From: Salinibaculum litoreum
GTDB lineage: Archaea > Halobacteriota > Halobacteria > Halobacteriales > Haloarculaceae
Direction: 5' to 3'
DNA: 64,000 bases
Assembly: GCA_009789175.1 (NCBI GenBank)
Contig: CP046866.1
Span: 868,001 to 932,000, forward strand
The notes beneath the pieces were generated by a model that did not search any database, was not told where the DNA came from, and worked only from the letters and a program-made list of their open reading frames with translations. Below, piece after piece: positions 5,016 through 46,081 of this stretch (the stretch's first letter is position 1; each line of letters begins with the position of its first letter). The position numbers and the translations under genes are program-made.

Positions 5016-5848
5016 GCGAAGGCTACATTCTCAATAAACTCCAGACGCCGGCGGCCCTCCGTCCGGTGTACGAATCGGTCAGAGGTGGTAATGTTACAAA
5101 AGAAACAATTCGGGAAGATACACTGCTCGGAGATAATCTCTTGAGTCAGGGATTAACCGGGCTTAGGCTAGTTCGCTTACTCGGAATCGACGAGGGGAAG
5201 CACTACGTCATCAACCCGCCGTGGGATATCGATGATGCGGAACTCTCGTTCAAAATGGCGATCCTCCATAATCTCGCCAAAGAATGCCAACCAAATGATT
5301 GGGGAAAACAAGCTGCAGTCCTCTTGAACTATCAGTATCTGTTGCAAGAGGATGTTCAATACTTCGAGAACGACGACGAGGTCCTGTTTGACAAAATAAA
5401 TAACTGGCATCGCCGAGAGAAGAACTACGTTCCCCAGTCACAGCAGGGAGACATCGATCTCAACAAGCCAAAATTCGTCAACTGGTCACGGCAGATGGAA
5501 TACCTTGGGCTGGTGCACAAAGCGAGGGGACGAGAACACGTTGTCTACCCTGACCCGGATCTCATTTACAAATCCATCGAACTGGCAATAGGGGAAGACG
5601 GTCAAGACGGCCGCATCGGGATGTCTCAGTATTTGCGCTGGCTCCGTGAAAATCTTCTTCAGGTGACGACGACGGATAGTGGGGCTGTACCGACAGCCCT
5701 CGCGCGAGTGTTGTATAATCTTGTCCGCGACAGGGATATTCGGCTCACAGAATATGGCGACTCTGGGAAGATTGGTCTCAACAGAACGCCACGACGGGAC
5801 GGAATCGACACAGAGGCGAACACTATCGAAATGAGGTCACAGCTATGA
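5012..5848 (+). CDS. 278-aa helical protein, DpdG-like by position
   Basis: Start chosen at the ATG at 5012, which overlaps the previous stop, rather than 21 bases upstream. The protein has no recognisable catalytic motif and is mainly alpha-helical; an N-terminal stretch (GGNVTKETIREDT ... GLTGLRLVRLLGI) and a middle stretch (FVNWSRQMEYLGLV) look like winged-helix DNA-binding units. The stop overlaps the ATG of the ATPase gene. Size and place directly before the large ATPase match DpdG preceding DpdH in bacterial 7-deazaguanine restriction clusters. That is a synteny argument from memory and was not tested by alignment. Likely a partner or DNA-recognition subunit of the following ATPase. Confidence 0.75.
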   Translation: MSEGYILNKLQTPAALRPVYESVRGGNVTKETIREDTLLGDNLLSQGLTGLRLVRLLGIDEGKHYVINPPWDIDDAELSFKMAILHNLAKECQPNDWGKQAAVLLNYQYLLQEDVQYFENDDEVLFDKINNWHRREKNYVPQSQQGDIDLNKPKFVNWSRQMEYLGLVHKARGREHVVYPDPDLIYKSIELAIGEDGQDGRIGMSQYLRWLRENLLQVTTTDSGAVPTALARVLYNLVRDRDIRLTEYGDSGKIGLNRTPRRDGIDTEANTIEMRSQL

Positions 5849-8766: not shown

Positions 8767-9463
8767 TTCTACCGATTCTGATTCGTTTGAAGGGCGTCTA
8801 GATCGGATGTACCAGCGCTATCGGAGGCAGGGTCTGGAGGATGAACTCGAAGAAATCGCCCAGAAGATGGAGGACACGCTCTTACAGCAGGCACTGGCAG
8901 ACGGATTTTTCGACGAAACTCTGGAGATTGACCGCGAAGCCAAGGGTGCCGTCAGCGAAACGCTCGACACACTCCAGAGAGCAGATCGAGACGAAGGAGA
9001 CTACGACGCTGTCGAGGAACAAGTTGAGGCTCTTCGAGAACGCGTTGAGAATGAGGAAACGCGCATTGCGAACAAAATCCAGCAGCTTCGGATCAAACGG
9101 CAGGAAAAAGTCTCGGGGATGCGGCGGCTCAACGAACGGGTCGAACGGGCAGACAGTACGCAACTCAAAGCTCTCGAGACGCTTCTGGAGGACTGGAACT
9201 GGAAGACACACGTCTATTCTGAGGACGTCGACACCTACGAACAACGGCGCGAGGAAGCGCTCCAGTACGGTGAGGATATGTCGTTCGTGTTCACGCAGCT
9301 CAAGAACGACCTGTTCGGCGTTTACGACGGGACAGAGCTCCGTCCGCTGGTCGATAAGTTGCTAGACGATGACCGACTCATCTTGGCTGCCCTCAGTGAG
9401 ACGGAACGCCAGCAACTCGCTGAGTCTGACCTCGGTGAGTATATCGAGCTGAAGTTATCGTAG
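8756..9463 (+). CDS. 235-aa coiled-coil protein, DpdI-like by position
   Basis: Start taken at the ATG at 8756, 11 bases inside the ATPase gene. The protein is highly charged and almost all helix: residues about 45-140 carry heptad-like Glu/Arg/Leu patterns (EEQVEALRERVENEETRI) predicted as coiled coil, followed by a compact C-terminal segment ending EYIELKLS. No enzymatic motif is visible. It closes the first overlapping gene group; a gap of about 100 bases follows before the second helicase. Position between the ATPase and the DUF1998-type helicase matches DpdI. A scaffold role linking ATPase and helicase is plausible but only inferred. Confidence 0.75.
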   Translation: MSSNSTDSDSFEGRLDRMYQRYRRQGLEDELEEIAQKMEDTLLQQALADGFFDETLEIDREAKGAVSETLDTLQRADRDEGDYDAVEEQVEALRERVENEETRIANKIQQLRIKRQEKVSGMRRLNERVERADSTQLKALETLLEDWNWKTHVYSEDVDTYEQRREEALQYGEDMSFVFTQLKNDLFGVYDGTELRPLVDKLLDDDRLILAALSETERQQLAESDLGEYIELKLS

Positions 9464-9513
9464 TCACATCATTTAAATCGGAACCTCAGATGGCTATCAC
9501 TCCCGCGCTTACG

Positions 9514-9526
9514 CGAAGTTTTTAGA
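9514..9526 (+). promoter_or_regulatory. Possible TATA-type promoter element for the second helicase gene
   Basis: This is the only gap of any size in the first operon. An AT-rich GAAGTTTTTAGAC lies about 45 bases before the ATG at 9568, and a second AT-rich stretch (CATTTAAATCGG) lies near 9470. Either could let the helicase and HKD genes be transcribed separately. Weak evidence. Confidence 0.3.
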
Positions 9527-9567
9527 CGCCCCCGTTGTTATCGCCTTATATCGGTTTACTTGACAGA

Positions 9568-12500
9568 ATGCAATTCATAGATCGCAATACCGATGACAGC
9601 CGTGTCCCGGCCGATGTACGACCGCTTCTTCAGGGGATGCTATATAACCGGCAGCTGTTTAGTGACGATGCTGAAGATGCGCCCTTTGTTACAGACGCAA
9701 TCAAATACGTGCGACAGCCCCAAGCACGGCGTGAAACGAGTCCGTACACCGGCGGCGACGACTTTGTCGAGTCGATAATCGATATTTTCGGATTCGACCC
9801 GCTGGACTTCCAAGTCGAGAGCTGGCAGACTGTCGACGAACTCGACAGACAGAGAATCGAACAAGATCAGACGAAAGCAGGTGTCTTTTCCGCACCAACC
9901 GGATTTGGGAAGACAGAGGCATTTCTCGGTCCACTTTACCAATTACTCAGAGAGGGGCGACAGGACTCTGTCGCCATCGTCTACCCGAGCCGTGCACTAC
10001 TACAGGATCAGCTTGGGCGTATTATCGAGCACATTCACACGCTCGAAACAGAACACGACGACAAGCTCTCAGTTGGCATCTACGCCGGTGGAATGCCGTA
10101 CGAGAAGTCAGACGTCGAGACCAACGATACTGTATTCGAACCGGGGAATGGCAGGCCGCGGTTCAAATTCGCCAACTGCTGGTGCGGAGACGAAGAGACG
10201 AATGCGTTCGAATTTCACGGCACCAGCCAGTCCTACTACATCCAGTGTGAAGAAAACCCTGAGCACCGGCTCACGGACCAGCAACTCTATCTCGCACGGA
10301 AAGAACTCGTCTCGGATGAGCCGGATATCGTCCTGACGACACTCGAATCGCTGGAAGGATTCGCCCTCAAACCCAACTACTCGCTAGTCGACGCCTTCGA
10401 TACGATTGTCCTTGACGAGGTACACTTGAACACCCGCCTCCGTGGTGCACATGCGTCGAAGATTATCGAGAACGTCAACGAAATCACGGACGACCCACTG
10501 TTGTGGCTTGGCTCCAGTGCAACCATCGACGACGCAGAACGGTTTGGACGCCGAATCTTCAGTGTCGACAGTTCAGACATCGAGACGATAGAGCCACCAG
10601 AGTCTGATTACGACCAGAATCATGACGACAACGAGCATTACTATTTCATGCTCGCTCCGGAGGACGGCCCTGGTGCCACTCCCATGGCGATTCAGCAGCT
10701 GATGTTGCTCGGACACACGCTGCTAGAGGACCCCGGTGGTGACAGGAGCAAACTGCTCTCGTTTATTGACAGCATTTCTCAAGTCAATCAAAAGAGCGTT
10801 CAGCTGAACGACGCGGACCGTACCCGGCAACTCTGGGAGCACCACCGTGGACACGATGATATCGAGGATTGGGACGAAGTTGCTGATGCGATGGGTCAGC
10901 AATTCCTCGACGAGCCGCTGGATTTCATGTCTGTTTACTCCGATGCAGGATTCGATAGCGATGAGACTCAGGCCAGTGATGTCCTCCTCTCAACGTCATT
11001 TCTCGAGGTAGGAATCGACGTGGGAGACATCAAAATCGTCTCACAATATCGAACGCCATGGGATCTTTCCTCGTTCCTCCAGCGAGCTGGCAGGGCAGCC
11101 CGAAAGACTGGGATGGACTCGCATATTGCGGTGTTCCTGTCGAATCTCACGAGCGACGCGAATATGTTCTACCGTGCCGACCGTTTCCTGAACTCTGAAA
11201 TTCGCACACCACTGAAAACAGACAATATCGTCGTCGAGTGGATGCACGACCGGTTCCGACGATACTACTCACACGCAAAGGACATCCATGGAGAATATTA
11301 TCGCTCGAGAAGCGACGAACAGGCAGCGTTTCTGGAACGGTATCTCAAAGACGATCTCGGCTATGATGCCTATTACGAATTACTGATCGAGCCGTCGTCG
11401 TTTTTCGAAGAGGAATTCGGACTTGACGTCGGGCCGGAACGACTGCTCTCCCCAGAGGTAGTCGATGATGTCCGAGAGGAGCTTGAAACCCATCTTGAGC
11501 AGCAAGGGACGGACTTCAGCGATATCAGGGAGTATTTCGAAGTCGACGATGGTGAAGTCATTCGAGGGGAGAATGCCGTCGACATGTACATCGCTGAAGT
11601 ACAGGACCAGACGCTCAGGGTTATCAATACATTCCACGGGCAGGTGACAGGATACGAGGAGAAGTTAGACGACATTGGCGTGACCGAACACGACGAATTG
11701 ATAGGGTCGCTTAACGAGCAACTCACAGAGTTCCGCGAGCGGGCAGCTACGTTGCCCGAGGGTGACACCGAAGAGAAGTCTGGTTACTTCTCAGGTCTCT
11801 TGGCGGATTTATTCGGGTTGATTGGTGACCTTATGCGACTCCGTAATCAAACAAATGCAGTAGCAGAGGACCCAATCCCACAGGTCAACCGAGATAGAAT
11901 CGACGAGCTGAGCGGTGCGGTGGCGCAACTTGAGGCACTAGCTGAAGAGGGCCGAATCACGGCTTATCATCAGGAGGAGAAACAGATCTACTATCTCAAA
12001 TCCGCTCTTGACGAGCTTGAATCCTATCTCGACTTCTATACCCCACACTTCTCGCTGTTTGCTATCAAACACCTGCTCAGGGGCGCATACTATCTTGATC
12101 GCTACTTCCGCACTGATGATCGGCAGCTCGACGATGATGTTTGGTTCGTGCCGCCAGATTACTTCGGAAGCACAGGCCAGTATGTAACCGTTCACCGAGG
12201 TGAAGACGATCTGGATGGCAATGACGAGTCAATCGACCAACTGATGAGTACGTTCACCCCGTATCGCAGTGAGTATCAGTCCGAGTCTGGCTCGATGCGG
12301 TCATTCCTCCCGATGACGGAGGTGACAGAGGACGGTGTTCAGTTCGACTTTACACGAGATGTAACGGGTGAAACCCGTGAGGGGGTACTGGTTCCAGATT
12401 CGATACAGCTATCTGAGATTCAGGATGAAACCGGGGATAGCGGGCAGAATATCATCAAATATTGTCCGGAGTGTTTCCAAATCATCACTGGTGATCTTGA

Positions 12501-13653
12501 TGTGTGTCTCCGGCACGAAGACAGAGCCTACGGGAAGATACACTCGGAGCCACATGTCGACACGACGGTCACTGATCGGACACCTGTTGAAAGTACTGGT
12601 GACCTTCTCTTGGCTGACTTGGAAGCGACCGTCTCACTTGAGAGTGTGACACTGTCGATTAATCCCGGAAAATACTACGGTCCCGAACTTGGCGTCAACT
12701 TCGATAGCAGCGAAGAACGCTTCGAACAGAAAATCACGAGCGGTTCACCGCCGATTGGATATCATTCAGAAACTCGGGGACTGGTCTTCGAGATGGGGCC
12801 GCTTTTCGATTCGTTCGATGAAAAGGTCCAAGAGTACGTTGAGCGCTACAAGGACGGTGGCAATCTGGAGTTCGAACAGCTGACGTACCATACGGCGGCA
12901 CACTTCTTCCTCCAGTTGGTCGCAGACGTCAGCAGTGTCAGCACCCAGATGCTGTTCTATGGCTACGATCAAGAGGAAGAGGAGGTTTACGTCTTTGAGC
13001 GGACAGAGGGTGGCCAGGGTATTGTTGACCTTGTCTACGAGGAACTTCGCGTCGACCCTGCGAGCGTTCTCGAATCGATTACTCGCATTGCATACAACGA
13101 GCAGGTGATCAGCGAACGGCTATGGGCACAGCCCGCGTTCGTGGGAGACATGCCGGTCAAGAGTCAAGCTGAATCCGATATCCGACCGATAGTCGAAGAG
13201 TACGTGCCTGTCCCGTACGACGACGTACAGGACCGCGTTGTCCAAGAGGTGTTGTCGACTGTGGACCGTGTTCATCAGTTTGCTGAGGATACCGGTGTGT
13301 CGGTGGCTGATGCGTTCGAGATTAAGCACACTGTCGCAACAGAGCAAATTGCTGGTACTGACGAGTTCCCAGCCGATGTCGTTGAGTCACTCGATGTCGA
13401 GGTGACCGACATTAATCGAGTCCGAACAATGTTTTACTCCCCGGATATCGATGGTTGTGTAGAGAACCTACACCTTGCTGAGTGCATCTCTGGCGGTGAC
13501 CAGACCGAAACGTTGAGCTACATTGTTCTCGAGGGGATACGTGAGCATCTCCTTGATACCGTTCCGACGGCAGAGGCAAGTGAAGCGATGTTCGAACATG
13601 AACTCCCCCCAGCAGGTGAACTCAATGGTACAAGCATTTTCCTTGACTTCTGA
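9568..13653 (+). CDS. Giant SF2 helicase, DpdJ-like, with DUF1998-type C-terminus
   Basis: A 1361-residue helicase counted from the ATG at 9568; an in-frame TTG at 9535 would add 11 residues. Walker A (APTGFGKTE) is at 110-118, DEVH (VLDEVHLN) near 283, SSAT near 316, and motif VI (LQRAGRAARKTG) near 505. A zinc cluster (CWCGDE ... C) lies near 205, a second (CPECF ... C) near 965, and a FERTEGGQGIVDLVYEE segment typical of DUF1998/MZB proteins follows near 1150. It overlaps the HKD gene by 29 bases. This helicase plus HKD pairing is shared by DpdJ-DpdK and DrmA-DrmC. With no methyltransferase nearby and DpdA-like genes in the same island, I favour DpdJ. Confidence 0.85.
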   Translation: MQFIDRNTDDSRVPADVRPLLQGMLYNRQLFSDDAEDAPFVTDAIKYVRQPQARRETSPYTGGDDFVESIIDIFGFDPLDFQVESWQTVDELDRQRIEQDQTKAGVFSAPTGFGKTEAFLGPLYQLLREGRQDSVAIVYPSRALLQDQLGRIIEHIHTLETEHDDKLSVGIYAGGMPYEKSDVETNDTVFEPGNGRPRFKFANCWCGDEETNAFEFHGTSQSYYIQCEENPEHRLTDQQLYLARKELVSDEPDIVLTTLESLEGFALKPNYSLVDAFDTIVLDEVHLNTRLRGAHASKIIENVNEITDDPLLWLGSSATIDDAERFGRRIFSVDSSDIETIEPPESDYDQNHDDNEHYYFMLAPEDGPGATPMAIQQLMLLGHTLLEDPGGDRSKLLSFIDSISQVNQKSVQLNDADRTRQLWEHHRGHDDIEDWDEVADAMGQQFLDEPLDFMSVYSDAGFDSDETQASDVLLSTSFLEVGIDVGDIKIVSQYRTPWDLSSFLQRAGRAARKTGMDSHIAVFLSNLTSDANMFYRADRFLNSEIRTPLKTDNIVVEWMHDRFRRYYSHAKDIHGEYYRSRSDEQAAFLERYLKDDLGYDAYYELLIEPSSFFEEEFGLDVGPERLLSPEVVDDVREELETHLEQQGTDFSDIREYFEVDDGEVIRGENAVDMYIAEVQDQTLRVINTFHGQVTGYEEKLDDIGVTEHDELIGSLNEQLTEFRERAATLPEGDTEEKSGYFSGLLADLFGLIGDLMRLRNQTNAVAEDPIPQVNRDRIDELSGAVAQLEALAEEGRITAYHQEEKQIYYLKSALDELESYLDFYTPHFSLFAIKHLLRGAYYLDRYFRTDDRQLDDDVWFVPPDYFGSTGQYVTVHRGEDDLDGNDESIDQLMSTFTPYRSEYQSESGSMRSFLPMTEVTEDGVQFDFTRDVTGETREGVLVPDSIQLSEIQDETGDSGQNIIKYCPECFQIITGDLDVCLRHEDRAYGKIHSEPHVDTTVTDRTPVESTGDLLLADLEATVSLESVTLSINPGKYYGPELGVNFDSSEERFEQKITSGSPPIGYHSETRGLVFEMGPLFDSFDEKVQEYVERYKDGGNLEFEQLTYHTAAHFFLQLVADVSSVSTQMLFYGYDQEEEEVYVFERTEGGQGIVDLVYEELRVDPASVLESITRIAYNEQVISERLWAQPAFVGDMPVKSQAESDIRPIVEEYVPVPYDDVQDRVVQEVLSTVDRVHQFAEDTGVSVADAFEIKHTVATEQIAGTDEFPADVVESLDVEVTDINRVRTMFYSPDIDGCVENLHLAECISGGDQTETLSYIVLEGIREHLLDTVPTAEASEAMFEHELPPAGELNGTSIFLDF

Positions 13654-14083
13654 TAGCCTGGGATATTTCATCGGGTACACACTCCACCACGCACGACGTG
13701 TCGCAATCGTGACGCCGTGGCTGAGTAACGTTCAGCTCCGCTTCCCCTTGAACGATCAACTCGATGCTCGCCACATGCGACTTCTCGACGCACTCGAGCA
13801 GTTAGAGGAGACTGATGTAACGCTCATCGTCCGTGAAGGCGAGGATCACAATGATTTCATCCGGGACCGCCTTCCTGAGGGTGTGTCACTCCTTGCTGTC
13901 GACGGTCTTCACGCTAAGGTAGTCGTCTGTGACGAATTTATCTATCTCGGCTCGGCCAACATCACGCGTGGCGGTCTGAGTATCAACAGGGAAGTCTGCG
14001 AAATAATCGAAAACGAGTACGAAGATGCTGGCGAATACTTGGAGCGCGAGCTTGATATCCAGTATTCGACTGAGGATCAATAG
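13625..14083 (+). CDS. Phospholipase-D-like single-HKD protein, DpdK-like
   Basis: Start set at the ATG at 13625, which has a GGTGA ribosome-binding sequence 7 bases upstream; in-frame ATGs at 13598 and 13523 would give longer forms. The 152-residue product has one complete HKD motif, LHAKVVVCD...GSANIT, with His near residue 96, as in PLD-family nucleases that dimerise to bring two HKDs together. DpdK of the Dpd cluster and DrmC of DISARM are such proteins. It is the last gene of the helicase operon, overlapping the helicase by 29 bases. Candidate nuclease effector, or a DNA-end-binding subunit. Confidence 0.8.
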   Translation: MVQAFSLTSDSLGYFIGYTLHHARRVAIVTPWLSNVQLRFPLNDQLDARHMRLLDALEQLEETDVTLIVREGEDHNDFIRDRLPEGVSLLAVDGLHAKVVVCDEFIYLGSANITRGGLSINREVCEIIENEYEDAGEYLERELDIQYSTEDQ

Positions 14084-15116: not shown

Positions 15117-15119
15117 AGA

Positions 15120-33818: not shown

Positions 33819-34295
33819 ATGTCTATCTTGCTTATTCAGGGATGCTCCAAGTCTAAGAACGCCCCCGGAGAACCTGTTGAGGCCCTCGATTTATACTCCG
33901 GATACTTCTTCAAGATTATCAAAAAAGCCATACGTGACGGCGATTTCAATAAACGAATCGACATTTGGATTCTATCAGCGAAATACGGGCTAATCGAGGA
34001 TGAAACCGAGATACAGCACTATGATCGACGGATGGATTCTAAGCGCGCAGCAGAACTTGCCCCGCAAGTCTCGGAAGATTTGGAACATAAGGGTGTGGGT
34101 GAGTATGACACTGTTGTTGTGAACGTCGGGAATGACTATCGTGATGCCCTCTCCGGCTTAGAAGCCTTAGAAAGTACAGATGTACATCACATTGATGGGG
34201 AAGGGATTGGTGTGAAAGGTCACAAATTAAAACAAATTATCCGTGGTGACTTCTCTGTGCCCCAGAAAGCAACCTCTGAAAAGGAGTCGGTCTAA
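33819..34295 (+). CDS. DUF6884-like protein linked to the DpdA-like enzyme
   Basis: The 158-aa product opens with LLIQGCSKSK, then LYSGYFFK, ILSAKYGLI and EIQHYDRRM, the conserved order of DUF6884-type domains. The layout parallels the archaeosine-synthase core seen in the gene at 41930-43933 (PCSQKK ... SGMYGPVP ... YDYV), so I read the two as distant relatives; here the KPYxxSxxH part is absent. It sits 2 bases before the transglycosylase gene and is surely co-transcribed with it. It may modify the inserted base or help DpdA recognise DNA; neither is shown. Confidence 0.7.
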   Translation: MSILLIQGCSKSKNAPGEPVEALDLYSGYFFKIIKKAIRDGDFNKRIDIWILSAKYGLIEDETEIQHYDRRMDSKRAAELAPQVSEDLEHKGVGEYDTVVVNVGNDYRDALSGLEALESTDVHHIDGEGIGVKGHKLKQIIRGDFSVPQKATSEKESV

Positions 34296-34297
34296 GT

Positions 34298-35539
34298 ATG
34301 GCTCAAACCCACTCTACGCAATCGCTCGATTTCGATATTGATTCAATTACAGGTGATGCCAGAGCTGGCCAACTCATCATCAACGACCAAACGCTCGAAA
34401 CCCCGAATCTCTTTCCAGTACTCAACTTCTACGCTGGGGGAACTCAGCGGAGTGTCTACGGTGGTGGCGTCCATCGGACGATAAAGGAATTCATGATTGG
34501 TGCTGACCGGGTTGGTACAGACCCGCTGTCTGAATATTTTGATGCAGCGATGACCTCCGTGTCGTCGTTGACTGACTACAATCTGACCCGAGAGCGCTAC
34601 GAAGACTATCTTGAGACACCAATCAAAGAACGAGAACTCTTCGAACCATTCTCTGGCCTTGTTTTCGCTGACTCCGGTGGTTTCAAATTCCTGAATAGTG
34701 ACGAGATGGACGGTAGCGACTTTGAAATGGAGATGAACCAAGAGACTGTCTTCGACATCCAGCAATCACTGGGAAGCGATATCATCGTAAACCTCGATCA
34801 TCCGATTGCGCCGGACGATGGTCACGAGGAGAGGGTCGAAAAGGCGAGACAAACAGCCGACAACATACATGAATTTCTCAGTTTGTCCCGTGATTTTGAG
34901 GGGGCACTCTATCTCACAGTCCACGGCTACAATTATTCAATGATTGATGAATTTCTGGACGTTCTCACCGACGAAGTTCCCGAAGGCGTGATTCGGGAGG
35001 GATTCGATGGAATCGCTCTCGGAAGCCTGGTGCCAAAGAAGGACAACCGTGGTGCGTTGATTACTGCAGTTTCTGACTGTCGGGAGGTAATGGCTGACTG
35101 GGGAATCTCTGATTGGCCGTTGCACGTATTGGGTATCTCGAGTCGTGCTATTCCACTACTCGCAGCACTGGGTGCTGATACATTCGATTCCAGCACGCAC
35201 CTCCACAACGCCATCAACGGCAAGTACAATTACTCTATGATGGAGAGTGTCCCTATCGACGATGTTGACTTCAGTAGGTGTGACTGCCCTGTCTGCCAAT
35301 CCGATGAATTAGTCGATAGAATGAAAGGGAATGCGGAATACCAGAAGGATATACTTGGTCCGGTTGCGATGCACAACTTGATTATACAGAAACGGGAACT
35401 CGCAGAGATCAGACGGTGCATTCACGAAGAGGACACGAATGCGCTTGTGGACTACTTTGAAGATCGGTTCAGTCGAGACAAGACTATGAGACGCTACGCA
35501 CATCAGGTCGTCAACGAATCACTTGGAGGGTACTTCTAA
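34298..35539 (+). CDS. dpdA: DpdA-like DNA/tRNA-guanine transglycosylase
   Basis: The 413-residue product has the TGT fold signature: FADSGGFKFLNSDE with the proton-transfer Asp near 125, NLDHPIAPDDG, LTVHGYNYS, ALGSLVPKK, and GADTFDSSTHLHNA with the nucleophile Asp near 296. A zinc site CxCxxC (CDCPVC, near 328) plus a downstream His (AMHN) is complete. It lacks the C-terminal PUA domain expected of the archaeal tRNA enzyme and differs strongly from tRNA TGT. DpdA enzymes exchange guanine in DNA for the 7-deazaguanine preQ0, a base archaea already make for archaeosine. Flanked by a DUF6884 gene and a GHKL ATPase with overlapping starts. Confidence 0.8.
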   Translation: MAQTHSTQSLDFDIDSITGDARAGQLIINDQTLETPNLFPVLNFYAGGTQRSVYGGGVHRTIKEFMIGADRVGTDPLSEYFDAAMTSVSSLTDYNLTRERYEDYLETPIKERELFEPFSGLVFADSGGFKFLNSDEMDGSDFEMEMNQETVFDIQQSLGSDIIVNLDHPIAPDDGHEERVEKARQTADNIHEFLSLSRDFEGALYLTVHGYNYSMIDEFLDVLTDEVPEGVIREGFDGIALGSLVPKKDNRGALITAVSDCREVMADWGISDWPLHVLGISSRAIPLLAALGADTFDSSTHLHNAINGKYNYSMMESVPIDDVDFSRCDCPVCQSDELVDRMKGNAEYQKDILGPVAMHNLIIQKRELAEIRRCIHEEDTNALVDYFEDRFSRDKTMRRYAHQVVNESLGGYF

Positions 35540-37095
35540 TGAAGAAAGCACCAAAAGTCAACGAGGTAAACGAGTTTCTTGAGATAGCGAGCGACTTCGA
35601 GAACCCTCTTGAGGTAATTCGTGAGTCGCTGTCGAACGCCTACGACGCTGGTGCCTCAAACGTCGAGATCCGGATCAGGAGTCGTCAGGGTGGCTCTGAT
35701 ATCATCATCGAAGACGATGGGTGTGGGATGAACGAACGCGATTTGGAATCGTTTTTCGACCTCGGTAACTCGCGAAAAACGGATGCGATTGGCTACAAGG
35801 GCCATGGCACGAAGATTTTCTACAAGAGTGACCGCATTGAGGTCACGACTGTCAACGACGGCACGAGCTACCGTGCGGTGATGGAGGATCCCTGGGAGAA
35901 ACTCAATAACAAGGAATTGCCTGAATACGATCTTACGTCGAATGACGTCCGCCGCGGGAACTCAGGAACGAAGATTCAAGTTACGAACTTCCGGTCCGGA
36001 CACGGATTCGATGCCGAGGAGCTGACGTACAACAAAATTCACCACTATCTGAAGTGGAAGACCATCGCTGGGTCGACGGCACACTACTTCGGCGATGGCC
36101 AGCGGGAAATGGATATTACGGTCACGCTGGATGAGGATATCGACGATTCACGCGAGTCGTTGGAGACAACGAACCGACTGGAGTTTCCTGACGAGCAACT
36201 GGAGCCCAGTGACGGTGAGTACCCTGCTGAGCGGATGTGCAAACACTACCCCGCTAGGGAAATCGAAGTCGAGTATGATGGCGGAGAAACACTCCTTCAG
36301 ATGGTCGGGATGGTTGGTGGAAAGGAGACGCGCAACGAATTGCCGACGTATGGACGTCACTCCGCACAATTCGGAATCTGGTTCGCGAAAGATCATATCA
36401 AGGTTGAACGCCTTAACGAGGCAATTTCTCACGACAACGAGTATATTCACTTCTTGTTCGTCGCGAACTGCCAGGATATCGAACTCTCTGCGAACCGTGA
36501 GACGATTCGGAACAAGGCCAGCCCTGTGTATAAGGCCATCCGGGAGGAGGTGGAGTACTACCTCTCGAAGGTGACCCAAGACCCATGGTTCAAGGACTAT
36601 CTGGAAACACGGAAGGAGGGTGAACATCGTCGACGGTCGGCCAAACAAGAGTCGTCGCTGAAAGACCGGAGAGAACGTGTCGAGACGGATGGATTCGCTC
36701 CAGAAAACCAAGCTGAGGTACTTCTGGGACTCGAACGTGCGTCACGGCAGGCCAACACCCGGTCCTTTACCGTGGAAGACTTTGACCCAGCAGCTGACGT
36801 GCATGCAATCGTCCGCCAGAACGGGAAACTACGGAATGCCGCTGTGCATCGTACACTCACGGAGTTATTCGAGGAAGAAGTCCCTCTAGAAAACACGGAG
36901 CTAGCGATTTGTTGGGACAAAGGAGACCCCGCAGAGCTCAGCGAGTATGAACGAAACGGGTACTTCGGTGGTGACGTGTCCTTGGACCTGGATCAAGGTG
37001 GACTTCGCTATCAGAACCACGACGATCAGTTCATAGAAATCGTCGAAGTGAAATCACTGCTCGAAACTGGTGCAGTGCCTCTCGCTAACGATTAA
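35539..37095 (+). CDS. GHKL (Bergerat-fold) ATPase, MORC/Hsp90-like
   Basis: The 518-aa product has the three ATP-site boxes of GHKL proteins: RESLSNAYDA (Glu/Asn, near residue 30), EDDGCGM (near 60) and GYKGHGTK (near 86-93). A transducer-like domain follows, ending near residue 330 (QDIELSANRETIRN), then a charged helical region and a C-terminal beta domain. MORC, MutL and Hsp90 ATPases use this fold to clamp on DNA or protein. It starts on the last base of the dpdA stop, so translation is likely coupled. An IS inserted 40 bases after its stop now separates it from the DUF262 gene. Confidence 0.8.
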   Translation: MKKAPKVNEVNEFLEIASDFENPLEVIRESLSNAYDAGASNVEIRIRSRQGGSDIIIEDDGCGMNERDLESFFDLGNSRKTDAIGYKGHGTKIFYKSDRIEVTTVNDGTSYRAVMEDPWEKLNNKELPEYDLTSNDVRRGNSGTKIQVTNFRSGHGFDAEELTYNKIHHYLKWKTIAGSTAHYFGDGQREMDITVTLDEDIDDSRESLETTNRLEFPDEQLEPSDGEYPAERMCKHYPAREIEVEYDGGETLLQMVGMVGGKETRNELPTYGRHSAQFGIWFAKDHIKVERLNEAISHDNEYIHFLFVANCQDIELSANRETIRNKASPVYKAIREEVEYYLSKVTQDPWFKDYLETRKEGEHRRRSAKQESSLKDRRERVETDGFAPENQAEVLLGLERASRQANTRSFTVEDFDPAADVHAIVRQNGKLRNAAVHRTLTELFEEEVPLENTELAICWDKGDPAELSEYERNGYFGGDVSLDLDQGGLRYQNHDDQFIEIVEVKSLLETGAVPLAND

Positions 37096-38504: not shown

Positions 38505-41500
38505 ATGATTGATGTGAGTATGCCGAACGATTCGCTTGAGGAAGTAGCCTCGAAGATTCTCACGTACACTGATGACAAATACAAAGAGGAATACCCCAGC
38601 ACTCACAAATACAACGTCCCGACCCGGCTAAAACAGCTTGAGCAGCGAGTTGCAGGCTTTGACGACGATGACCCGGTTTACGACATCGATACCGAATCTG
38701 TCCACGAGTATCTGATCCGGCTTGACGACGATGAGCTGTTTACATCAAGTGCCTTTCTCGGACATATACTGAACCCTCCAGTAAGCAGCTTAGTCATCCC
38801 AGATTACCAGCGTGACTACTCTTGGAAGACTCCAAATAATCGTCGCTATTGGATCGACATCAAAACCCTGTTGCACAGCATCACCGATCAAGGCCCACAG
38901 CAACGAGAGAAGTACATGGGTTCGGCATATCTCTCCGACGAATCAGATAATCTCGAAATCATTGATGGCCAACAGCGGGTCACAACATCCTTATTGCTAT
39001 TGTTAAATATAAAACATTATTTCGACTTGCTCCAGCCGCATGTGGTGGAGAATGCGAATGAAAATTTCAAAGCCTTCTTTAACCATTTCACCGGCTCTGA
39101 CCATCTCGAACAGATGCTGTATCCCTCTGGAGGCGAGCCCGTCTTGAAGCCAAACGAGAGCGATGAGAGCTACTTCAATGCTATCTTTGCTAAGGAAGAC
39201 GTGCTCCTTGAGCAGTACTTAGACGACATTGAGACGGCGGAAGGACCTGGCGGTGTAATCGGTGATGAAAAATTACTGCGAAACGAACTCGGATATCCCC
39301 CCCATGAGGTGGATGAGTTATCGCCTGTCCCTGATGGAAAGAATTTCGTACAAAAGCAATCGAATCGGTTGCTTCGGGAAGCGTTCACATTCTATCGGGA
39401 GCAAATTGGCGAGCTAATCAACCAGCAACGCGTGCTTGGGGAAGATAGGGAGCTAACGGTAAATATCATTACTGCTAGTTCTAACCGAGTGCATCTCCAG
39501 GCAGGTACCTCTCCAAGCAGTGATGATCAGTTAGCCAATGTTCCTGTCGCTGATGCTCACGTCTATTATCTTTCTGGTGAAGGAGATTCCAGCGATGGGT
39601 ATATGGAGGAGCTGTCTGAGGAAACATATCAGGGTACTACTGATGCCTATGGAAAATTAGAGGTTGATTTCGAAACAGCCCCGGATGACGGGGGCAGGAT
39701 AGTAGTCAGGAGCGGTTACGAGACGGAAACAATTAATTTCTCTGCTATTTCTGAGCTAGAACCGGACAGGATCTCGATTGTTTCCCAGACTGAGAACAAA
39801 CTAATAGTCGCTGCTCGAAACGATGAAGGTGGACAACCGGAGACGACCATTGAAGTCAATGGGACTAGTAACGAAACTGATGAAAATGGGGTTGCGGTCT
39901 TCAATCTTAATAATATCGACCCCCTGGCCACTGATGGGAATAGCGTTTATCAAATCCGGCTTTCCGATGGGACAACTCGGGATGTCGCAAGTGACTCAAT
40001 AACTGCCAGTGAGTATTGGCCTATCACTTACGGAGACTTCGAGAATCCAGTAGAAAAGTCCCGTATCCTTATCAACCTCGTTTTCGTGTTGCTGCATTCA
40101 ATCCGAATAGTGTATGCGGAGTTTGGGATTCCAAACAAACAATATAAAATAGATATCTTCCAGTCGCTTAACGATAGAGGGGAAGAGCTCGACATCCGAG
40201 ATATTATTCGGGCTAGGGTTATCGCAAAAGAGGTGGACAATGTTGGTGCTTGGAGAGAAATTGACGACCGGTTTGATGGTGAGCCTGAGGATATCGAGGA
40301 CTTCCTAAAGCAGTACATTACTGCTGAACAGGGGCTAACTAAGCCCGATAGCGACGATGTCAAATCGTTATTCGCGCTTCATGAAGCCACGGTTGGTGAC
40401 GCAGAGTCTATTTTAGTAGGCGATGTAAATGACGCCGAAACCAAGCTGGCCGAACTTGAGACGTACTCCAAGCGATACAAAGAAATCAGCCAAGCAACGC
40501 TCCCCCCAGCCAGCTCAGGGGAGATACAGGGATTTACACGAAGTCATGCGTCTGGAAGTCAGAACCCGAGTCAGGAAGAGCAAAATCTGCGGGAGGAGTG
40601 TGAGACGTTATTTGGCTATCTCAACGAGGTTGGCAAGGTTTGGCAACCGTTCGTTCTTGGACTTTATTATGACTTTGCGCAAACAGATGGAAGGGGAAAG
40701 AAGTTTAACGACGTACTGAAAGTTCTCGTCAAAATTATCTATCGGTATACCCCATACGGGGAAGGTATTTCCTCGTCCATCGCGAGAACGTATCTCCACG
40801 ATATGGCCAAAAACCTTGTTGACGAGCAGCTTGACGTGAACGACTCAGACGACATCATCAGGAGACTCAAGTCCGATCTCCCGGATGACTTGGAATTGGA
40901 GGAAGTTGCCCGCCGGTTTGCGACACGACGAAACTGGCAGTCGGACACGGTCAAGTCTTTGTATGCACGCCACATTGACATCAAGCTCAGTCAGCAGGCG
41001 GAGGAGGGTCAATATATAACTCGGCAGTTCGAACGCACCAGCGAAGATGAGTTGACCATTGAGCATATTTTCCCTTCTTCGCTGGGACTAAACGCCAACA
41101 GTGAGAGTCCGAAGCGATGGCTTGAGGTCTATTTCTACCCCGTTAACAGCGATTCGCTGGAAACGTTGGTTGACGAACTGGAAGTCGATGGTGACGGTCA
41201 AGCCGATGATGTCGAAATGCTGCGCCAGAAATTCGTGAACGAGATTGGTAATATGATTCCGCTCATTCACGCGGAAAATGCCTCGGTGTCTGACCGGATG
41301 TTCTCGAAGAAGCTCACCTACTATTTCCTTGTCGGAATGACCGAAATGAAAAATACGGACGAATACCTCTACAACGAGCACTCCTTAGCTGACCTTGTCC
41401 CACTCATCGAGGCGTTCGTCGATAAGGCTGGCTACAGTGAGGACGTCGCAGCCAGCATCTTTGGGTTGTTAGTAGAAAGTGGGGACACAGCACAGCAAGA

Positions 41501-41855
41501 AACGATTTCAGATGCTTTGATACAGTACGATATCGATGCAGATGCCATCTCATCAACCGAGCTGACAACGGACGTTGACTCCAATTCCACAGTCAAAGAC
41601 AAAATTCGGTCTATGCTCGAACGCGACACGATAGATGAAACGGACAAAGGAACCCTAAGCATCGTGAAAACCTACAACCACAAATGGACTGTCGAAGATA
41701 CTAAAGATCGCAAAGAACATCTCATTCGTGAGATGCTGAAAACGTTAGCCTTCGAAGACGAGTACGACCCGAGCGAAGATGATGAGGCAAACTTTGGTAC
41801 TGACCTCCAGACAGCAATCGACGACGACTACGAGAAACGAATTGATCTTCGCTAA
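38505..41855 (+). CDS. DUF262-DUF1524 (GmrSD/DpdB-like) protein with an internal Ig-like insertion
   Basis: The 1116-aa product begins with a DUF262 (ParB-superfamily) domain: IPDYQRDYSWK near 100 and IIDGQQRVTTSLLLL near 152. It is interrupted at about 318-500 by two Ig/carboxypeptidase-regulatory-like units (VPVADAHVYYLSGEG ... DAYGKLEV; ETTIEVNGTSNETDENG), then resumes (FQSLNDRGEELDIRDIIRA). A DUF1524 HNH-type domain follows with LTIEHIFPSSLG near 850 and GNMIPLIHAEN. GmrSD enzymes of this build cut modified DNA using NTP. DndB/DpdB proteins share the DGQxR motif and act in DNA modification. Which role applies here is open. ATG at 38505; ATG at 38520 is possible. Confidence 0.8.
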   Translation: MIDVSMPNDSLEEVASKILTYTDDKYKEEYPSTHKYNVPTRLKQLEQRVAGFDDDDPVYDIDTESVHEYLIRLDDDELFTSSAFLGHILNPPVSSLVIPDYQRDYSWKTPNNRRYWIDIKTLLHSITDQGPQQREKYMGSAYLSDESDNLEIIDGQQRVTTSLLLLLNIKHYFDLLQPHVVENANENFKAFFNHFTGSDHLEQMLYPSGGEPVLKPNESDESYFNAIFAKEDVLLEQYLDDIETAEGPGGVIGDEKLLRNELGYPPHEVDELSPVPDGKNFVQKQSNRLLREAFTFYREQIGELINQQRVLGEDRELTVNIITASSNRVHLQAGTSPSSDDQLANVPVADAHVYYLSGEGDSSDGYMEELSEETYQGTTDAYGKLEVDFETAPDDGGRIVVRSGYETETINFSAISELEPDRISIVSQTENKLIVAARNDEGGQPETTIEVNGTSNETDENGVAVFNLNNIDPLATDGNSVYQIRLSDGTTRDVASDSITASEYWPITYGDFENPVEKSRILINLVFVLLHSIRIVYAEFGIPNKQYKIDIFQSLNDRGEELDIRDIIRARVIAKEVDNVGAWREIDDRFDGEPEDIEDFLKQYITAEQGLTKPDSDDVKSLFALHEATVGDAESILVGDVNDAETKLAELETYSKRYKEISQATLPPASSGEIQGFTRSHASGSQNPSQEEQNLREECETLFGYLNEVGKVWQPFVLGLYYDFAQTDGRGKKFNDVLKVLVKIIYRYTPYGEGISSSIARTYLHDMAKNLVDEQLDVNDSDDIIRRLKSDLPDDLELEEVARRFATRRNWQSDTVKSLYARHIDIKLSQQAEEGQYITRQFERTSEDELTIEHIFPSSLGLNANSESPKRWLEVYFYPVNSDSLETLVDELEVDGDGQADDVEMLRQKFVNEIGNMIPLIHAENASVSDRMFSKKLTYYFLVGMTEMKNTDEYLYNEHSLADLVPLIEAFVDKAGYSEDVAASIFGLLVESGDTAQQETISDALIQYDIDADAISSTELTTDVDSNSTVKDKIRSMLERDTIDETDKGTLSIVKTYNHKWTVEDTKDRKEHLIREMLKTLAFEDEYDPSEDDEANFGTDLQTAIDDDYEKRIDLR

Positions 41856-41929: not shown

Positions 41930-43933
41930 TTAGTCCCGAGTGACGCCATCGGCTGAGCTATCGAGGTAGTCGAGGAGTTCCTGAACGTTGCTGTTACGGA
42001 AATACTCCGTTAGCTGAAGCGCCTTCGGGTCTCGTGGCAAGGTTTCCCCACGGCCGTAGCGGTCGAATGCATTTTCGAGGACCTGCCGGTACGTTTTGCT
42101 CGTCACGTAGCCCAATATCGTATCGTACTGTTCCCCGTAGGCTTCTAAGAAATCGACGGTTCGATCGGTAACCAACTCTATCTGCTCTTTGTCCTCCTTT
42201 GCGAGGACGTAGTCATACTCTAAAACGGGATCGGCGCGCTCGCATTCCTGTGGCACCGGACCGTACATCCCCGATATTGTTACTTTTTGAATGTCATCTG
42301 ATCTGGATCCAAGTTTATCGAAGAGGACCGAATGTGTTCGCGACTTCGAATACGGCTTCTTCTGGCTACACGGAATAAACAGGAGTGTGTCTTTGTCGCC
42401 CTGAGGCTCATACGACCGGGTCAGGACGTTGAAATCGCTCGGGTGGTGCTTAAGTGAGATGCGGCGGGAGTTTGTGTCCTTTTCGACGCCTGCATCCCAC
42501 TTTGAGAGCGTCGCTTGATCACTTGTCAATGACGACCCTGGCAAGAGGTCGTAAGCCTCGCGCGCAGCGACATCGTTCCGGAGTTGTTTGTCGCGGAGTT
42601 GTGCCTCCTGCAGTCCTTTTTTGATGTCGTCGTGCTCTCTGGCAAACCCAATCACGTAGTCGAGAAGGTTTCCTTCCTGGATAGCGTCTCGGACACGTCG
42701 CAATTCTTCATTGTATACCTCGAAATTGTGTCGTGCCAGTAACGCGTAGTAGTCACTCTTGATGGGCTCGTCATTTTCTTTGCGCTCTTGACGCTCATCG
42801 TAGGTCAGGTCAGTGTTCAGTTCCTCGAGTAACTTCTCGTAACTGACTCCGTCGTCGCCACACAGAAGGCATTCTGGCAGGTCACATGGGAAACTGCCGT
42901 CCGGACGCAGTTCGCCTGAAAGTTCGTCGAGCTTGTAGTGGCTCCACGACTCAGGGTGTGTGTACTTTTTGTAGCGGGCAGTTTGCATGTGAGTCGAACA
43001 GTCAAACGAATCTACGCCAAGTAGTGAGAGCAGTCCAACTTGCTTGCCCCCAACCCCGAAGACGTGGAGTCCGAGTTCGTCGTCTCTGGCTTCTGGGATG
43101 GCGTCCTTGGCTCCCTGGACGATGTCAACGAGGACGTCCATGCTGCTCCTCAACGGAACTAACGAGCCGACCGCAAACCCCTCAAATGAGCTATCAAGCT
43201 CTAAATCAGCAACTCTCTCGATGAACGTTCCGACGTACCAGTTGATCGTTTCGTAGTCGTGTCCGTGCAATGCAATATAGACGCTCGGTTCCTCACCAGC
43301 GGCTTTCCTTTCACGGAGACGCTCTGCCGCTCGACTGTTGATTTCGAAGTTTTCTTCGAGCCGGGAAGGGTCGTCGAGAATTCGGAGACATTCGACTGCG
43401 CTATCGATACTGCGCTCCATTCGCTCGACTTTCTCCTCTTCCTTGAGATCGGGCGGGATCGGATAGTCAAGAGTCGCGACGATATCTGCTCCGAAATCGA
43501 GTTGTAGTCCCAGTATACTCTTCGGGTCGGTGTATAGTCCCCACTCGTTTGGCGTCCCACCTTTCTCTGGTGCTTCCCCGAACGTATTGGAGTTCATCAG
43601 CTTGAATCCGCCAGAGTCGATGAACACTGGTGCATTCAGGTCCTCGAAGTGTTCGTAGAAGGTTCTCGGACGCCAGAATTCATTGAGGTTCTCCGGCGAA
43701 ACTCCGTAGTCTGTAAAACTCATCGTCTGGAACATGACTCCCTGCAGGTGATCCTTTGAGATGAGCTTCTCCCGCATTCTTCGCCAGACGCCGCCAGACT
43801 CGTGCGTAGTTCCACCGATAAGGTTGACGACGGGAAAGAGGGCTGGTGTTTCGACATCTCCATGTGAAGTCTGTAACTCTCCCAACCGCCCGTAGCCATC
43901 ATCTCCGACTGTCTTCACACGGAAACTCATCAA
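41930..43933 (-). CDS. DpdA-like transglycosylase fused to an archaeosine-synthase (ArcS) core domain
   Basis: Residues 1-400 are a complete TGT-type catalytic domain: FIDSGGFKLMNS (Asp near 104), ATLDYPIPPDL, IALHGHDYE, AVGSLVPL, VDSFDCSTH (nucleophile Asp near 309), and zinc ligands CDLPECLLC near 349 with a later His. Residues about 515-640 match the ArcS core with PCSQKKPYSKSRTH (near 520-533), an exact fit to the PCx3KPYx2Sx2H motif of archaeosine synthase, then SGMYGPVPQECE and YDYV. No PUA tRNA-binding domain follows. ArcS acts on preQ0 already placed in tRNA; a TGT active site plus ArcS motif without PUA suggests both steps on another substrate, probably DNA. Convergent with the DUF262 gene. 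Confidence 0.8.
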   Translation of the reverse strand: MMSFRVKTVGDDGYGRLGELQTSHGDVETPALFPVVNLIGGTTHESGGVWRRMREKLISKDHLQGVMFQTMSFTDYGVSPENLNEFWRPRTFYEHFEDLNAPVFIDSGGFKLMNSNTFGEAPEKGGTPNEWGLYTDPKSILGLQLDFGADIVATLDYPIPPDLKEEEKVERMERSIDSAVECLRILDDPSRLEENFEINSRAAERLRERKAAGEEPSVYIALHGHDYETINWYVGTFIERVADLELDSSFEGFAVGSLVPLRSSMDVLVDIVQGAKDAIPEARDDELGLHVFGVGGKQVGLLSLLGVDSFDCSTHMQTARYKKYTHPESWSHYKLDELSGELRPDGSFPCDLPECLLCGDDGVSYEKLLEELNTDLTYDERQERKENDEPIKSDYYALLARHNFEVYNEELRRVRDAIQEGNLLDYVIGFAREHDDIKKGLQEAQLRDKQLRNDVAAREAYDLLPGSSLTSDQATLSKWDAGVEKDTNSRRISLKHHPSDFNVLTRSYEPQGDKDTLLFIPCSQKKPYSKSRTHSVLFDKLGSRSDDIQKVTISGMYGPVPQECERADPVLEYDYVLAKEDKEQIELVTDRTVDFLEAYGEQYDTILGYVTSKTYRQVLENAFDRYGRGETLPRDPKALQLTEYFRNSNVQELLDYLDSSADGVTRD

Positions 43934-44522: not shown

Positions 44523-45626
44523 TTACCCCATTCTATCGAGGGCATCTTGTCGATCTTCGACCGGCGTCTGATCGTATTTCATTGTCGTCTGAGGTGACCT
44601 ATGCCGTAATTGTGCTTGCGCTGCAGCCAAGTCTTCTTCTCTCGTCATGTAGGTTCCCACTGAGTGACGAATTGAGTACCAACTCATCTTTCTGTTTTCT
44701 GTCTCGATGTCTGCGATATCGCAGAGCCGCTCTATCACGGTTTTCAGCGAGTGCGAGCCGTAGGGATTGTTTTCACGGGTCAGCCAGATAGCGCCACTTC
44801 CGTCGTATTTAGAATATAATTCCCGTTCTTCGAGCCATCTGCTGAGTATATCCGCTGTCTTTTCTCTGAGACTGACAATCCAGTTATCCCGAGATTTTGC
44901 ACTCTCCTCTTTAGGAATTCGCAACACTCCATTTTCTGTGTCGACCCACGAAGTGATTGCGCGCTCTACCTCGATGGGCCGAAGTCCAGCATCGAGCGAT
45001 GTCCAAACGAGCGATGGTATCTTCCACCCGTTGGCCCGACTCCAATCTTCTGGGCTGATTTCTGACTTTGGCTTTGAGAATCGCTGCGCCAGATGTATTT
45101 TCCACTTTTCTCGTTCACTTGGAGCAAGATTCGAATAGGAAGGGATGGTACCGTACTCTAGCGCAGCATCTCGGACTTTCCCTCGCTCTTCTCGAGTTAG
45201 GTAATCACGGGGCTGTGAACTGCTGTTCTCAGAAAATCTAATCGAGGGATCCCAGTTTTCAACACCATGTTCGCGGTGTCGCCATTTGAACAGCATCTGG
45301 ACTGACTTTTGACAATTTGCTTTGTGCGTGTTGCTGTAGTCTGTCTGTGCCAGATGCCGCGTCCATTGGTCCGCGTGACTGGGTTTGATATTCGCTGTAT
45401 ACCCGTTCTCCTGTTCCCAGACCCAGCGATAGAACTGGTCCATCCGGTAGGACCGTGGCTTGACTGTTCCAAACGCGTAGCCTTCACCCTTTTCGGGTCT
45501 CTTGCCGATCGAGAGCAACCATCGGAGACAGTCTTTTCGTTCGTCTTCGTAGTCGAGTAGCTGACGCGGATTAAGGTATTCTTCTGCAACCTCCGTTACG
45601 ACAGGTAACTCTGAAATCTCGTCCAT
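44523..45626 (-). CDS. Tyrosine recombinase (XerC/phage-integrase type)
   Basis: The 367-aa product has an N-terminal SAM-like core-binding domain (residues about 20-140) and a C-terminal catalytic domain with the Arg of SLDAGLRPIEVE near 213, SIRHSVGTY (H-x-x-R equivalent) near 318, LRHRSPQTT (His) near 342, and the catalytic Tyr in MKYDQT near 351. It would catalyse site-specific integration or excision. Its start is about 210 bases from the tRNA-Glu remnant, the classic arrangement for an archaeal island. A CDS of full length with all catalytic residues, so possibly still active. Confidence 0.85.
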   Translation of the reverse strand: MDEISELPVVTEVAEEYLNPRQLLDYEDERKDCLRWLLSIGKRPEKGEGYAFGTVKPRSYRMDQFYRWVWEQENGYTANIKPSHADQWTRHLAQTDYSNTHKANCQKSVQMLFKWRHREHGVENWDPSIRFSENSSSQPRDYLTREERGKVRDAALEYGTIPSYSNLAPSEREKWKIHLAQRFSKPKSEISPEDWSRANGWKIPSLVWTSLDAGLRPIEVERAITSWVDTENGVLRIPKEESAKSRDNWIVSLREKTADILSRWLEERELYSKYDGSGAIWLTRENNPYGSHSLKTVIERLCDIADIETENRKMSWYSIRHSVGTYMTREEDLAAAQAQLRHRSPQTTMKYDQTPVEDRQDALDRMG

Positions 45627-45833: not shown

Positions 45834-45879
45834 GTGGCCTCTCACGGCAAGGACTTGGGTTCGAATCCCAAACGGAGCA
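45834..45879 (+). tRNA. Decayed 3' part of tRNA-Glu(CTC), probable attachment site
   Basis: 46 bases match the 3' half of haloarchaeal tRNA-Glu as I recall it: anticodon loop CTCTCAC with anticodon CTC, an intact T arm (TTGGG-TTCGAAT-CCCAA), the acceptor 3' strand ACGGAGC and discriminator A. The anticodon stem is broken (GGC opposite GGC) and no 5' half (GCTCCGT...) lies nearby, so it is not a functional tRNA. Remnants of tRNA 3' ends beside an integrase mark attachment sites. A full copy of the gene is expected at the other island end. Confidence 0.6.
45860..45879 (+). repeat. Direct repeat copy 1 of tRNA-end (att-like) sequence
   Basis: TTCGAATCCCAAACGGAGCA, identical to the copy at 45971-45990, 111 bases apart. 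It is the T-loop to discriminator part of the tRNA-Glu remnant. Confidence 0.85.
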
Positions 45880-45921
45880 CTCTTCTGAGGAACGAAGTGA
45901 CGAAGAAGGAAGCGCACGGAA

Positions 45922-45980
45922 GGGATTCGAACTACGCGAACGTGAGCGCCAGCGAGCGTTCGCCATCGAGTTCGAATCCC
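45922..45980. repeat. Nested inverted repeat between the att-like copies
   Basis: GGGATTCGAACT (45922-45933) pairs perfectly with AGTTCGAATCCC (45969-45980), and inside it GCGAACG (45936-45942) pairs with CGTTCGC (45957-45963), giving a long cruciform that includes tRNA T-arm sequence on both strands. Confidence 0.75.
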
Positions 45981-45990
45981 AAACGGAGCA
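45971..45990 (+). repeat. Direct repeat copy 2 of tRNA-end (att-like) sequence
   Basis: Second exact copy of the 20-base T-loop/acceptor sequence, without the anticodon part. It may mark a second integration event or a duplicated attachment site. Apart from these repeats, 45,627-46,081 holds no gene I can support. Confidence 0.85.
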
Positions 45991-46081
45991 TTTTACTGCG
46001 ACCCTCTCTGCAAGCAGCGACAGCGTCACATCGCCTGCGCGGACCGAACTCTCTTCAGCCTGACTGTGCCTACTGTCATGT

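Follow-up and report, generated by a model that had tools for sequence, protein, structure and literature searches.

A predicted DNA-modifying fusion of a DpdA-type transglycosylase and an archaeosine-synthase core in a haloarchaeal Dpd-like island

Introduction

Marks of the 7-deazaguanine type are found in the DNA of phages and bacteria, and dG+ in phage DNA. The literature that we found holds no report of such marks in archaeal chromosomes. BRIGADE, a predicted class of Dpd-like defence systems, is described in the main text of a recent preprint as confined to halophilic archaea (Bell et al., 2025; PMC12458937). Its traits are given there as a pair of YprA-type helicases, a nuclease of the PLD or PD-(D/E)xK kind and a gene cluster predicted to synthesise 7-deazaguanine; in type I, one helicase is ARMADA-like and the other belongs to the Dpd branch (PMC12458937). 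The terms TGT, transglycosylase, ArcS, preQ0 and archaeosine do not occur in that main text, which thus leaves the fusion gene treated here and its chemistry undescribed. Our literature search likewise returned no paper describing a fusion of a transglycosylase (TGT) with an ArcS core; the main Dpd papers lay outside the search and may hold an earlier mention.

The chemistry of ArcS, whose core forms the second half of such a fusion, is known from tRNA. In the passages of the ArcS study covered here, the Thermococcus kodakarensis enzyme lysinates preQ0 carried by tRNA, by RNA fragments and by the preQ0 nucleoside or its 5'-phosphate, and leaves the free preQ0 base unmodified (PMC11298593). ArcTGT no longer exchanges the product, preQ0-Lys (PMC11298593). 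The substrates in these passages are RNA and nucleosides, with no DNA among them.

Results and discussion

A Dpd-like island in Salinibaculum litoreum

The window, the whole stretch of DNA that was analysed, comprises 64,000 nt of Salinibaculum litoreum (CP046866.1, positions 868,001–932,000, forward strand). The fusion gene lies in an island of ~58 kb that is integrated in tRNA-Glu(CTC) and has a G+C content of 0.52, against ~0.63 outside. The features of the island are as follows (window positions unless stated otherwise).

Genome C1:862256–864768, within the island and just upstream of the window: QueD, QueE, FolE and QueC (preQ0 genes)
1..4101, plus strand: YprA-type helicase A with an MrfA zinc-binding domain, complete at 1558 aa, its first 192 codons lying left of the window
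4098..5848, plus strand: two conserved genes of the cassette (4098–5015 and 4991–5848), neither with a family match
5845..8766, plus strand: STAND-like ATPase, DpdH-like (PADLOC DpdH 1.4e-6)
8723..9463, plus strand: conserved cassette gene, no confident family
9535..13653, plus strand: DpdJ-like helicase (NCBIfam 1.4e-43, below cut-off; PADLOC 2e-45)
13523..14083, plus strand: DpdK-like PLD nuclease (NCBIfam 2.5e-11, below cut-off; PADLOC 8e-11)
33819..34295, plus strand: DUF6884 protein of the YaaA/DUF328 type (Pfam 4e-15; PADLOC DpdC 2.9e-7)
34298..35539, plus strand: DpdA-like TGT, the second transglycosylase, with a complete active site of the His type
35539..37095, plus strand: HATPase (GHKL) protein, third gene of a conserved DUF6884-DpdA-HATPase triad
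38505..41855, plus strand: GmrSD-type (DUF262/DUF1524) endonuclease, a variable neighbour at fusion loci and a regular neighbour of the triad at loci without the fusion
41930..43930, minus strand: TGT–ArcS-core fusion (FUS), 666 aa from ATG, or 667 aa from TTG at 43933
44523..45626, minus strand: tyrosine integrase, at the island's right end
45838..45879, plus strand: 42-bp direct repeat of the tRNA-Glu 3' end, marking the island end; the other copy is within the tRNA-Glu gene (genome C1:855871, position 7871 of L006)

By gene content, the island fits the description of BRIGADE type I, with the helicases placed by best match. It shares with that type two YprA-type helicases (one nearest DruE, one DpdJ-like), the 7-deazaguanine genes QueD, QueE, FolE and QueC, the PLD nuclease at 13523–14083 and a halophilic host, a genome among the Halobacteria with Haloplanus, Natrinema, Halorubrum and others as nearest relatives. 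DruE is also the best PADLOC match of helicase A, and the restriction cassette with DpdH, DpdJ and DpdK homologues spans 1–14083. The original prediction spoke of an island full of DNA-defence genes; the Dpd-like genes agree with this, although the class already bears a name, BRIGADE, in the preprint's main text (PMC12458937). The prediction did not mention the second TGT that follows the DUF6884 gene, the preQ0 genes or the Dpd-like cassette.

Unlike canonical bacterial Dpd systems, in which dpdA, dpdB, dpdC and dpdD–K score above cut-offs, the island has only distant DpdA-, DpdC-, DpdH-, DpdJ- and DpdK-like genes that fall below the NCBIfam cut-offs. The second TGT, for example, matches the DpdA profile NF041059 weakly (3.5e-7, below cut-off). 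No DpdB match was found among the island proteins scanned, and the HATPase of the triad is a possible DpdB stand-in.

Several other features of the island were observed. Truncation of helicase A by upstream IS copies was considered and rejected, as its 1558-aa frame runs uninterrupted across the left border of the window. Next to the DpdK-like gene, here and at two other loci (L041 and L077), stand a weakly PIN-like protein and one of 297 aa (14421–16013, minus strand), which are likely to be a further component or a toxin-antitoxin-like pair. A transposase-like gene is present in two copies with identical protein, one inside the island (16100–17245) and one near its left end (L006:10196–11341). 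Two long proteins (20062–23745, minus strand, and 31317–33698, plus strand) carry nine and five HNH-associated repeats (PF18780), respectively; one of the two ends in a C-terminal helix-hairpin-helix, and such repeat proteins recur beside islands. At 1116 aa, the GmrSD-type protein is of unusual length, and the ~280 residues that separate its N-terminal domain from the next matched part resemble, by eye, an Ig-type insert. Finally, within 45838–45992, a shorter repeat of the tRNA-Glu end (23 bp, at 45970) stands next to the 42-bp one, as though this site had been used for insertion twice.

An intact transglycosylase site joined to an ArcS core

The fusion is encoded by an uninterrupted reading frame (41930–43933, minus strand) of 667 aa counted from TTG. 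Relatives open with 'MASF..', which favours the ATG of the second codon (666 aa) as the start. Its parts, all on the minus strand and in the residue numbers of the fusion, are listed below.

42629..43897: TGT domain, residues 13–435 (Pfam TGT 1.6e-27)
43616–43618, 43265–43267 and 43001–43003: TGT active-site residues D106, His223 and D311; also D156
Within the TGT domain: zinc ligands C350/C355/C358/H402
42050..42424: DUF5591 (ArcS core), residues 504–628 (Pfam 3e-18)
42332–42373: ArcS motif PCSQKKPYSKSRTH (PCx3KPYx2Sx2H), residues 521–534

Both Pfam matches exceed the curated cut-offs, and the PCSQKKPYSKSRTH motif was not hit once in 200,000 shuffles of the protein. Among the fusions collected, the equivalents of Zymomonas mobilis D102, D156 and D280 (here D106, D156 and D311) are invariant (42 of 42), as is the zinc ligand His402. 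Each zinc cysteine is retained in 27–28 of 29 close members and in all 13 members of a sister group (FUSb); the site has the form C-x4-C-x2-C (CDLPECLLC), not CxCxxC. The exact PCx3KPYx2Sx2H motif is kept in 39 of 42 relatives, with its last histidine replaced by glutamine in two members. The pairing of a complete TGT-type active site with an exact ArcS motif in one gene, which the original prediction had read from the letters, is thereby upheld.

The same holds for the contrast that it drew with ArcS. The two proteins share the core domain with the PCx3KPYx2Sx2H motif, but ArcS combines a degenerate TGT domain with a C-terminal PUA-type extension, whereas the TGT site of the fusion is intact and PUA is missing. 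A mean of 0.8 residues follows the core in fusions, compared with 144 in ArcS. The N-terminal TGT domain of ArcS is degenerate at the catalytic positions, and the equivalent of D156 is proline in 23 of 30 proteins. A comparison of the C-terminal region with ArcS, set beforehand, also came out as expected: the fusion's core matches that of the host's own ArcS by profile (98%, E 1.6e-13; 31% identical). In an AlphaFold2 model built with 20 family sequences (mean pLDDT 77.5), residues 1–465 adopt the TGT fold, with Z 33 to the archaeosine TGT (1iq8/1j2b). The last 163 residues, modelled separately (pLDDT 85), match AF0587 (2q07) with Z 15.2 over 131 residues, far above the next unrelated fold (Z 9.3). 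AF0587 is also the sole solved protein that matches this domain by sequence.

Profile models of the known families assign the fusion to none of them. It scores 102 bits against the ArcS model NF040592 (threshold 440) and 103 bits against the TgtA model TIGR00432 (threshold 350), and neither the NCBIfam (NF041059) nor the PADLOC model of DpdA matches it. With the DpdA proteins of phages and of bacterial dpd islands (PMC6884629) it has in common the TGT fold, the catalytic aspartate pair and probably a conserved histidine, as well as the preQ0 genes and DpdJ-, DpdK- and DpdH-like genes nearby. It differs from DpdA in adding a C-terminal ArcS core and in length (667 aa against about 320–420). TgtA (1iq8/1j2b) offers the closest solved fold for the TGT part; unlike TgtA, the fusion has histidine in place of the base-binding glutamine, forms a separate clade, lacks PUA and carries the ArcS core.

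The remodelling of TGT-family proteins in type IV CBASS raises the question of a substrate other than nucleic acid. Cap10 binds a protein N-terminus bearing a 7-deazaguanine base (PMC11996544), and its structure (9ntn) is a very weak profile match to the fusion (E 0.0066). A role in modifying a protein or small nucleotide in the manner of Cap9/Cap10 is nevertheless very improbable: the match to true TGTs is much stronger (3.7e-24), both catalytic aspartates are present in every member, the setting is that of Dpd and BRIGADE, and no CD-NTase was found among the subset of island proteins scanned.

The transglycosylase domain groups with DpdA-like proteins

The position that binds the base in tRNA TGTs (Gln203) separates the fusions from the housekeeping enzymes. 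It is glutamine in 30 of 30 TgtA proteins and histidine in all 42 fusions and all 33 haloarchaeal DpdA-like proteins. A conserved histidine has been described in DpdA (PMC6884629), and the alignment suggests that His223 of the fusion is likely its reported His196; the DpdA of phage 9g aligns one residue off at this position. In a tree of the TGT region built without 9g DpdA, the fusions form a single clade (support 100/100) and, together with haloarchaeal DpdA and a Halorientalis TGT (Hl344), stand apart from TgtA, ArcS, E. coli Tgt and Nostoc TGT (97/86). A larger sequence set gives the same split (99/94). The placement of 9g DpdA beside FUSb in the larger tree was taken as a long-branch artefact. 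A clade of the fusions with TgtA is rejected (p-AU 0.009), and one with ArcS is marginal (p 0.06) for the TGT region; in the tree of the core domain, ArcS splits from the fusions with support of 100. A simple reading of these trees is a DpdA-type TGT that acquired an ArcS core and not an ArcS that lost its PUA, with the test against ArcS remaining marginal (p 0.06). Of the phylogeny that the original prediction proposed as a check, the separation from TgtA and the grouping with haloarchaeal DpdA-like proteins are thus clear, but the split from ArcS is marginal.

It had also named, as the case that would speak against it, a TGT domain clustering with housekeeping TgtA/ArcS in a genome lacking another copy; with respect to TgtA, this case did not arise. 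Besides the p-AU value, the host has its own TgtA, ArcS and RaSEA outside the island, along with a second QueC. All 39 genomes with a fusion in our survey (see below) have separate TgtA and ArcS genes above cut-off, and a housekeeping TgtA/ArcS role for the fusion was rejected on these counts. The same data bear on the idea of an archaeosine enzyme that modifies tRNA specifically under stress or infection. In fold and active site the fusion corresponds to archaeosine TGT and ArcS, which are known to act on tRNA, and the title of a 2006 paper referenced in the ArcS study states that the PUA of archaeal TGT is not strictly required (PMC11298593). A tRNA substrate is still improbable, given that TgtA and ArcS are already present in 39 of 39 genomes, that the TGT domain groups with DpdA-like proteins and has the DpdA-type histidine, and that the gene keeps company with helicases and DpdH/J/K-like genes rather than with translation genes.

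Distribution of the fusion and its association with a second transglycosylase

Full-length fusions occur in 39 of 391 Halobacteria genomes (one per species, taken evenly across the class), spanning 26 genera and 46–81% identity, and on two haloarchaeal plasmids. They fall into two sister groups, FUS and FUSb. When bacteria and archaea at large were scanned with one genome for each species, full-length relatives were found in haloarchaea only, and distant TGT-only relatives in Methanofastidiosum and a few bacteria. IMG/VR viral contigs gave no relative in single-sequence and profile scans, and a phage collection gave no fusion and one TGT-only match (23% identity); a viral origin was rejected on these results, within the reach of scans that miss distant relatives. 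DpdA2 and ArcS are not among the annotated names in the first 50 kb of the Vibrio phage nt-1 record. On a plasmid of Haladaptatus sp. YSMS36 (L078:20001–33433), FUS, FUSb and a DpdA-like protein make three TGT genes at one locus.

Fusion and DpdA-like TGT occur together in 38 of the 391 genomes, the fusion alone in one, the DpdA-like TGT alone in five and neither in 347 (Fisher p 4e-46, uncorrected for kinship). Within ~9 kb of the fusion, 31 of 38 loci have the triad, 14 the preQ0 genes, 15 helicase A and 14 the DpdH-like ATPase; a RaSEA gene was sought and found in no fusion neighbourhood. With DpdA in 38 of 39 fusion genomes, the fusion rarely acts alone. The five genomes with the triad and no fusion, and the one with a fusion and no DpdA of the triad, indicate that the fusion is not required and not paired in every case. 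Whereas the triad also occurs in fusion-free genomes, a fusion without the triad is a rare exception. At the five Halobacteria loci that lack a fusion (L185–L189), the triad is followed by GmrSD and accompanied by a conserved protein of ~313 aa (MGKRPEIGA..), and some have DpdJ/DpdK-like genes nearby.

This near-constant company is compatible with a different assignment of the chemistry. The fusion could be a DNA transglycosylase whose core works like DpdC (hydrolysing dpreQ0 to dADG) or yields another nitrile product, or it could be mainly a partner subunit of DpdA, so that the mark would be dpreQ0 or dADG and neither lysine nor G+ would be involved. A model for the subunit version is the heterodimer of eukaryotic QTRT1 and QTRT2, in which the active site of QTRT2 is incomplete. 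In the haloarchaeal loci, the fusion is almost always accompanied by both a DpdA-like TGT and a DUF6884 protein resembling DpdC, and RaSEA is absent from its neighbourhoods. The DUF6884 protein is a distant relative of the ArcS core and of DpdC (hhalign to the fusion's core, 64.7%, E 6e-5), and phage ArcS may itself carry out amidohydrolase chemistry, as suggested in PMC6884629. We consider this assignment rather unlikely. The KPY, S and H of the ArcS motif are near-invariant and the domain is clearly ArcS-type; the separate DUF6884 protein could take the place of DpdC; the active site is complete in both TGTs, in contrast to QTRT2; and five genomes have DpdA without the fusion.

Proposed function in DNA modification

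We propose that the fusion is a bifunctional enzyme that inserts preQ0 into DNA and adds lysine to it through the ArcS core, as part of a BRIGADE/Dpd-like system of self/non-self recognition; for this combined reading, our confidence is evenly divided. That the gene serves DNA modification in such a system is by itself highly probable. The lysine or G+ chemistry in particular is a closer call that falls a little short of even, and the ArcS core may perform chemistry other than lysine transfer. The most specific version, in which a single polypeptide places preQ0 in the DNA of the chromosome and turns it there into deoxy-preQ0-lysine, or with the host's RaSEA into dG+, so that a lysine-derived or amidine base would be the self mark of an archaeal defence system, we put forward as a tentative model.

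Judging from gene families, QueD, QueE, FolE and QueC of the island would supply preQ0. The DpdA-type TGT domain, with its complete active site, would then exchange a guanine for preQ0 in DNA, which the Dpd-like surroundings make the likeliest substrate. By analogy with ArcS biochemistry, the core would next attach lysine to the inserted base at its nitrile, giving deoxy-preQ0-lysine. Base insertion is expected to precede lysine addition because ArcS, in the passages covered, ignores the free preQ0 base, and the lysine step would lock the exchange because ArcTGT cannot exchange preQ0-Lys back (PMC11298593). Carrying both sites on a single chain would lock an exchange that is otherwise reversible, in the way reported from tRNA for ArcS and ArcTGT. 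Optionally, the housekeeping RaSEA could cleave the adduct to dG+. The resulting mark would shield host DNA from the helicase, ATPase and PLD-nuclease cassette of the island, which would attack unmarked DNA, and the DUF6884-DpdA-HATPase triad may act as a second, partly independent modification module that is nearly always alongside.

Two parts of the original prediction need qualifying in this light. One enzyme that both inserts and converts preQ0 is what we propose as well, but it is no self-sufficient system: a second DpdA-type TGT is present in 38 of 39 genomes, usually in the triad next to the fusion. Of the two products that it named, a lysine adduct or G+, the adduct is the predicted direct one by analogy with ArcS since the fusion neighbourhoods lack RaSEA, and dG+ would need the housekeeping RaSEA. 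If the model is right, coupling base exchange to ArcS chemistry equips archaea with a self mark that is bulky and may bear lysine, and the fusion of both steps would account for how transglycosylation, in itself reversible, becomes permanent. BRIGADE would also gain a concrete DNA chemistry that is testable in culturable strains such as Haloplanus ruber, Natrinema salsiterrestre, Halorubrum coriense and others.

A plasmid of Halorientalis litorea (L082:1531–11043) resembles the island in having QueC-FolE-QueE-QueD and a pair of TGTs. It differs in the fused domain, which is DUF6884-like and not an ArcS core (968-aa TGT protein, C-terminus read by eye). Its preQ0 genes are divergent from the 968-aa TGT, the partners are a 344-aa His-type TGT and a BREX-type ATPase, and the 12 kb examined contain no YprA helicase. 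From its gene content, we regard it as a parallel system with another fused domain. Outside the haloarchaea, Methanofastidiosum-type archaea (L166–L173) encode TGTs of ~355 aa with histidine at the base-binding position (SCVHGF), which are possible DpdA proteins.
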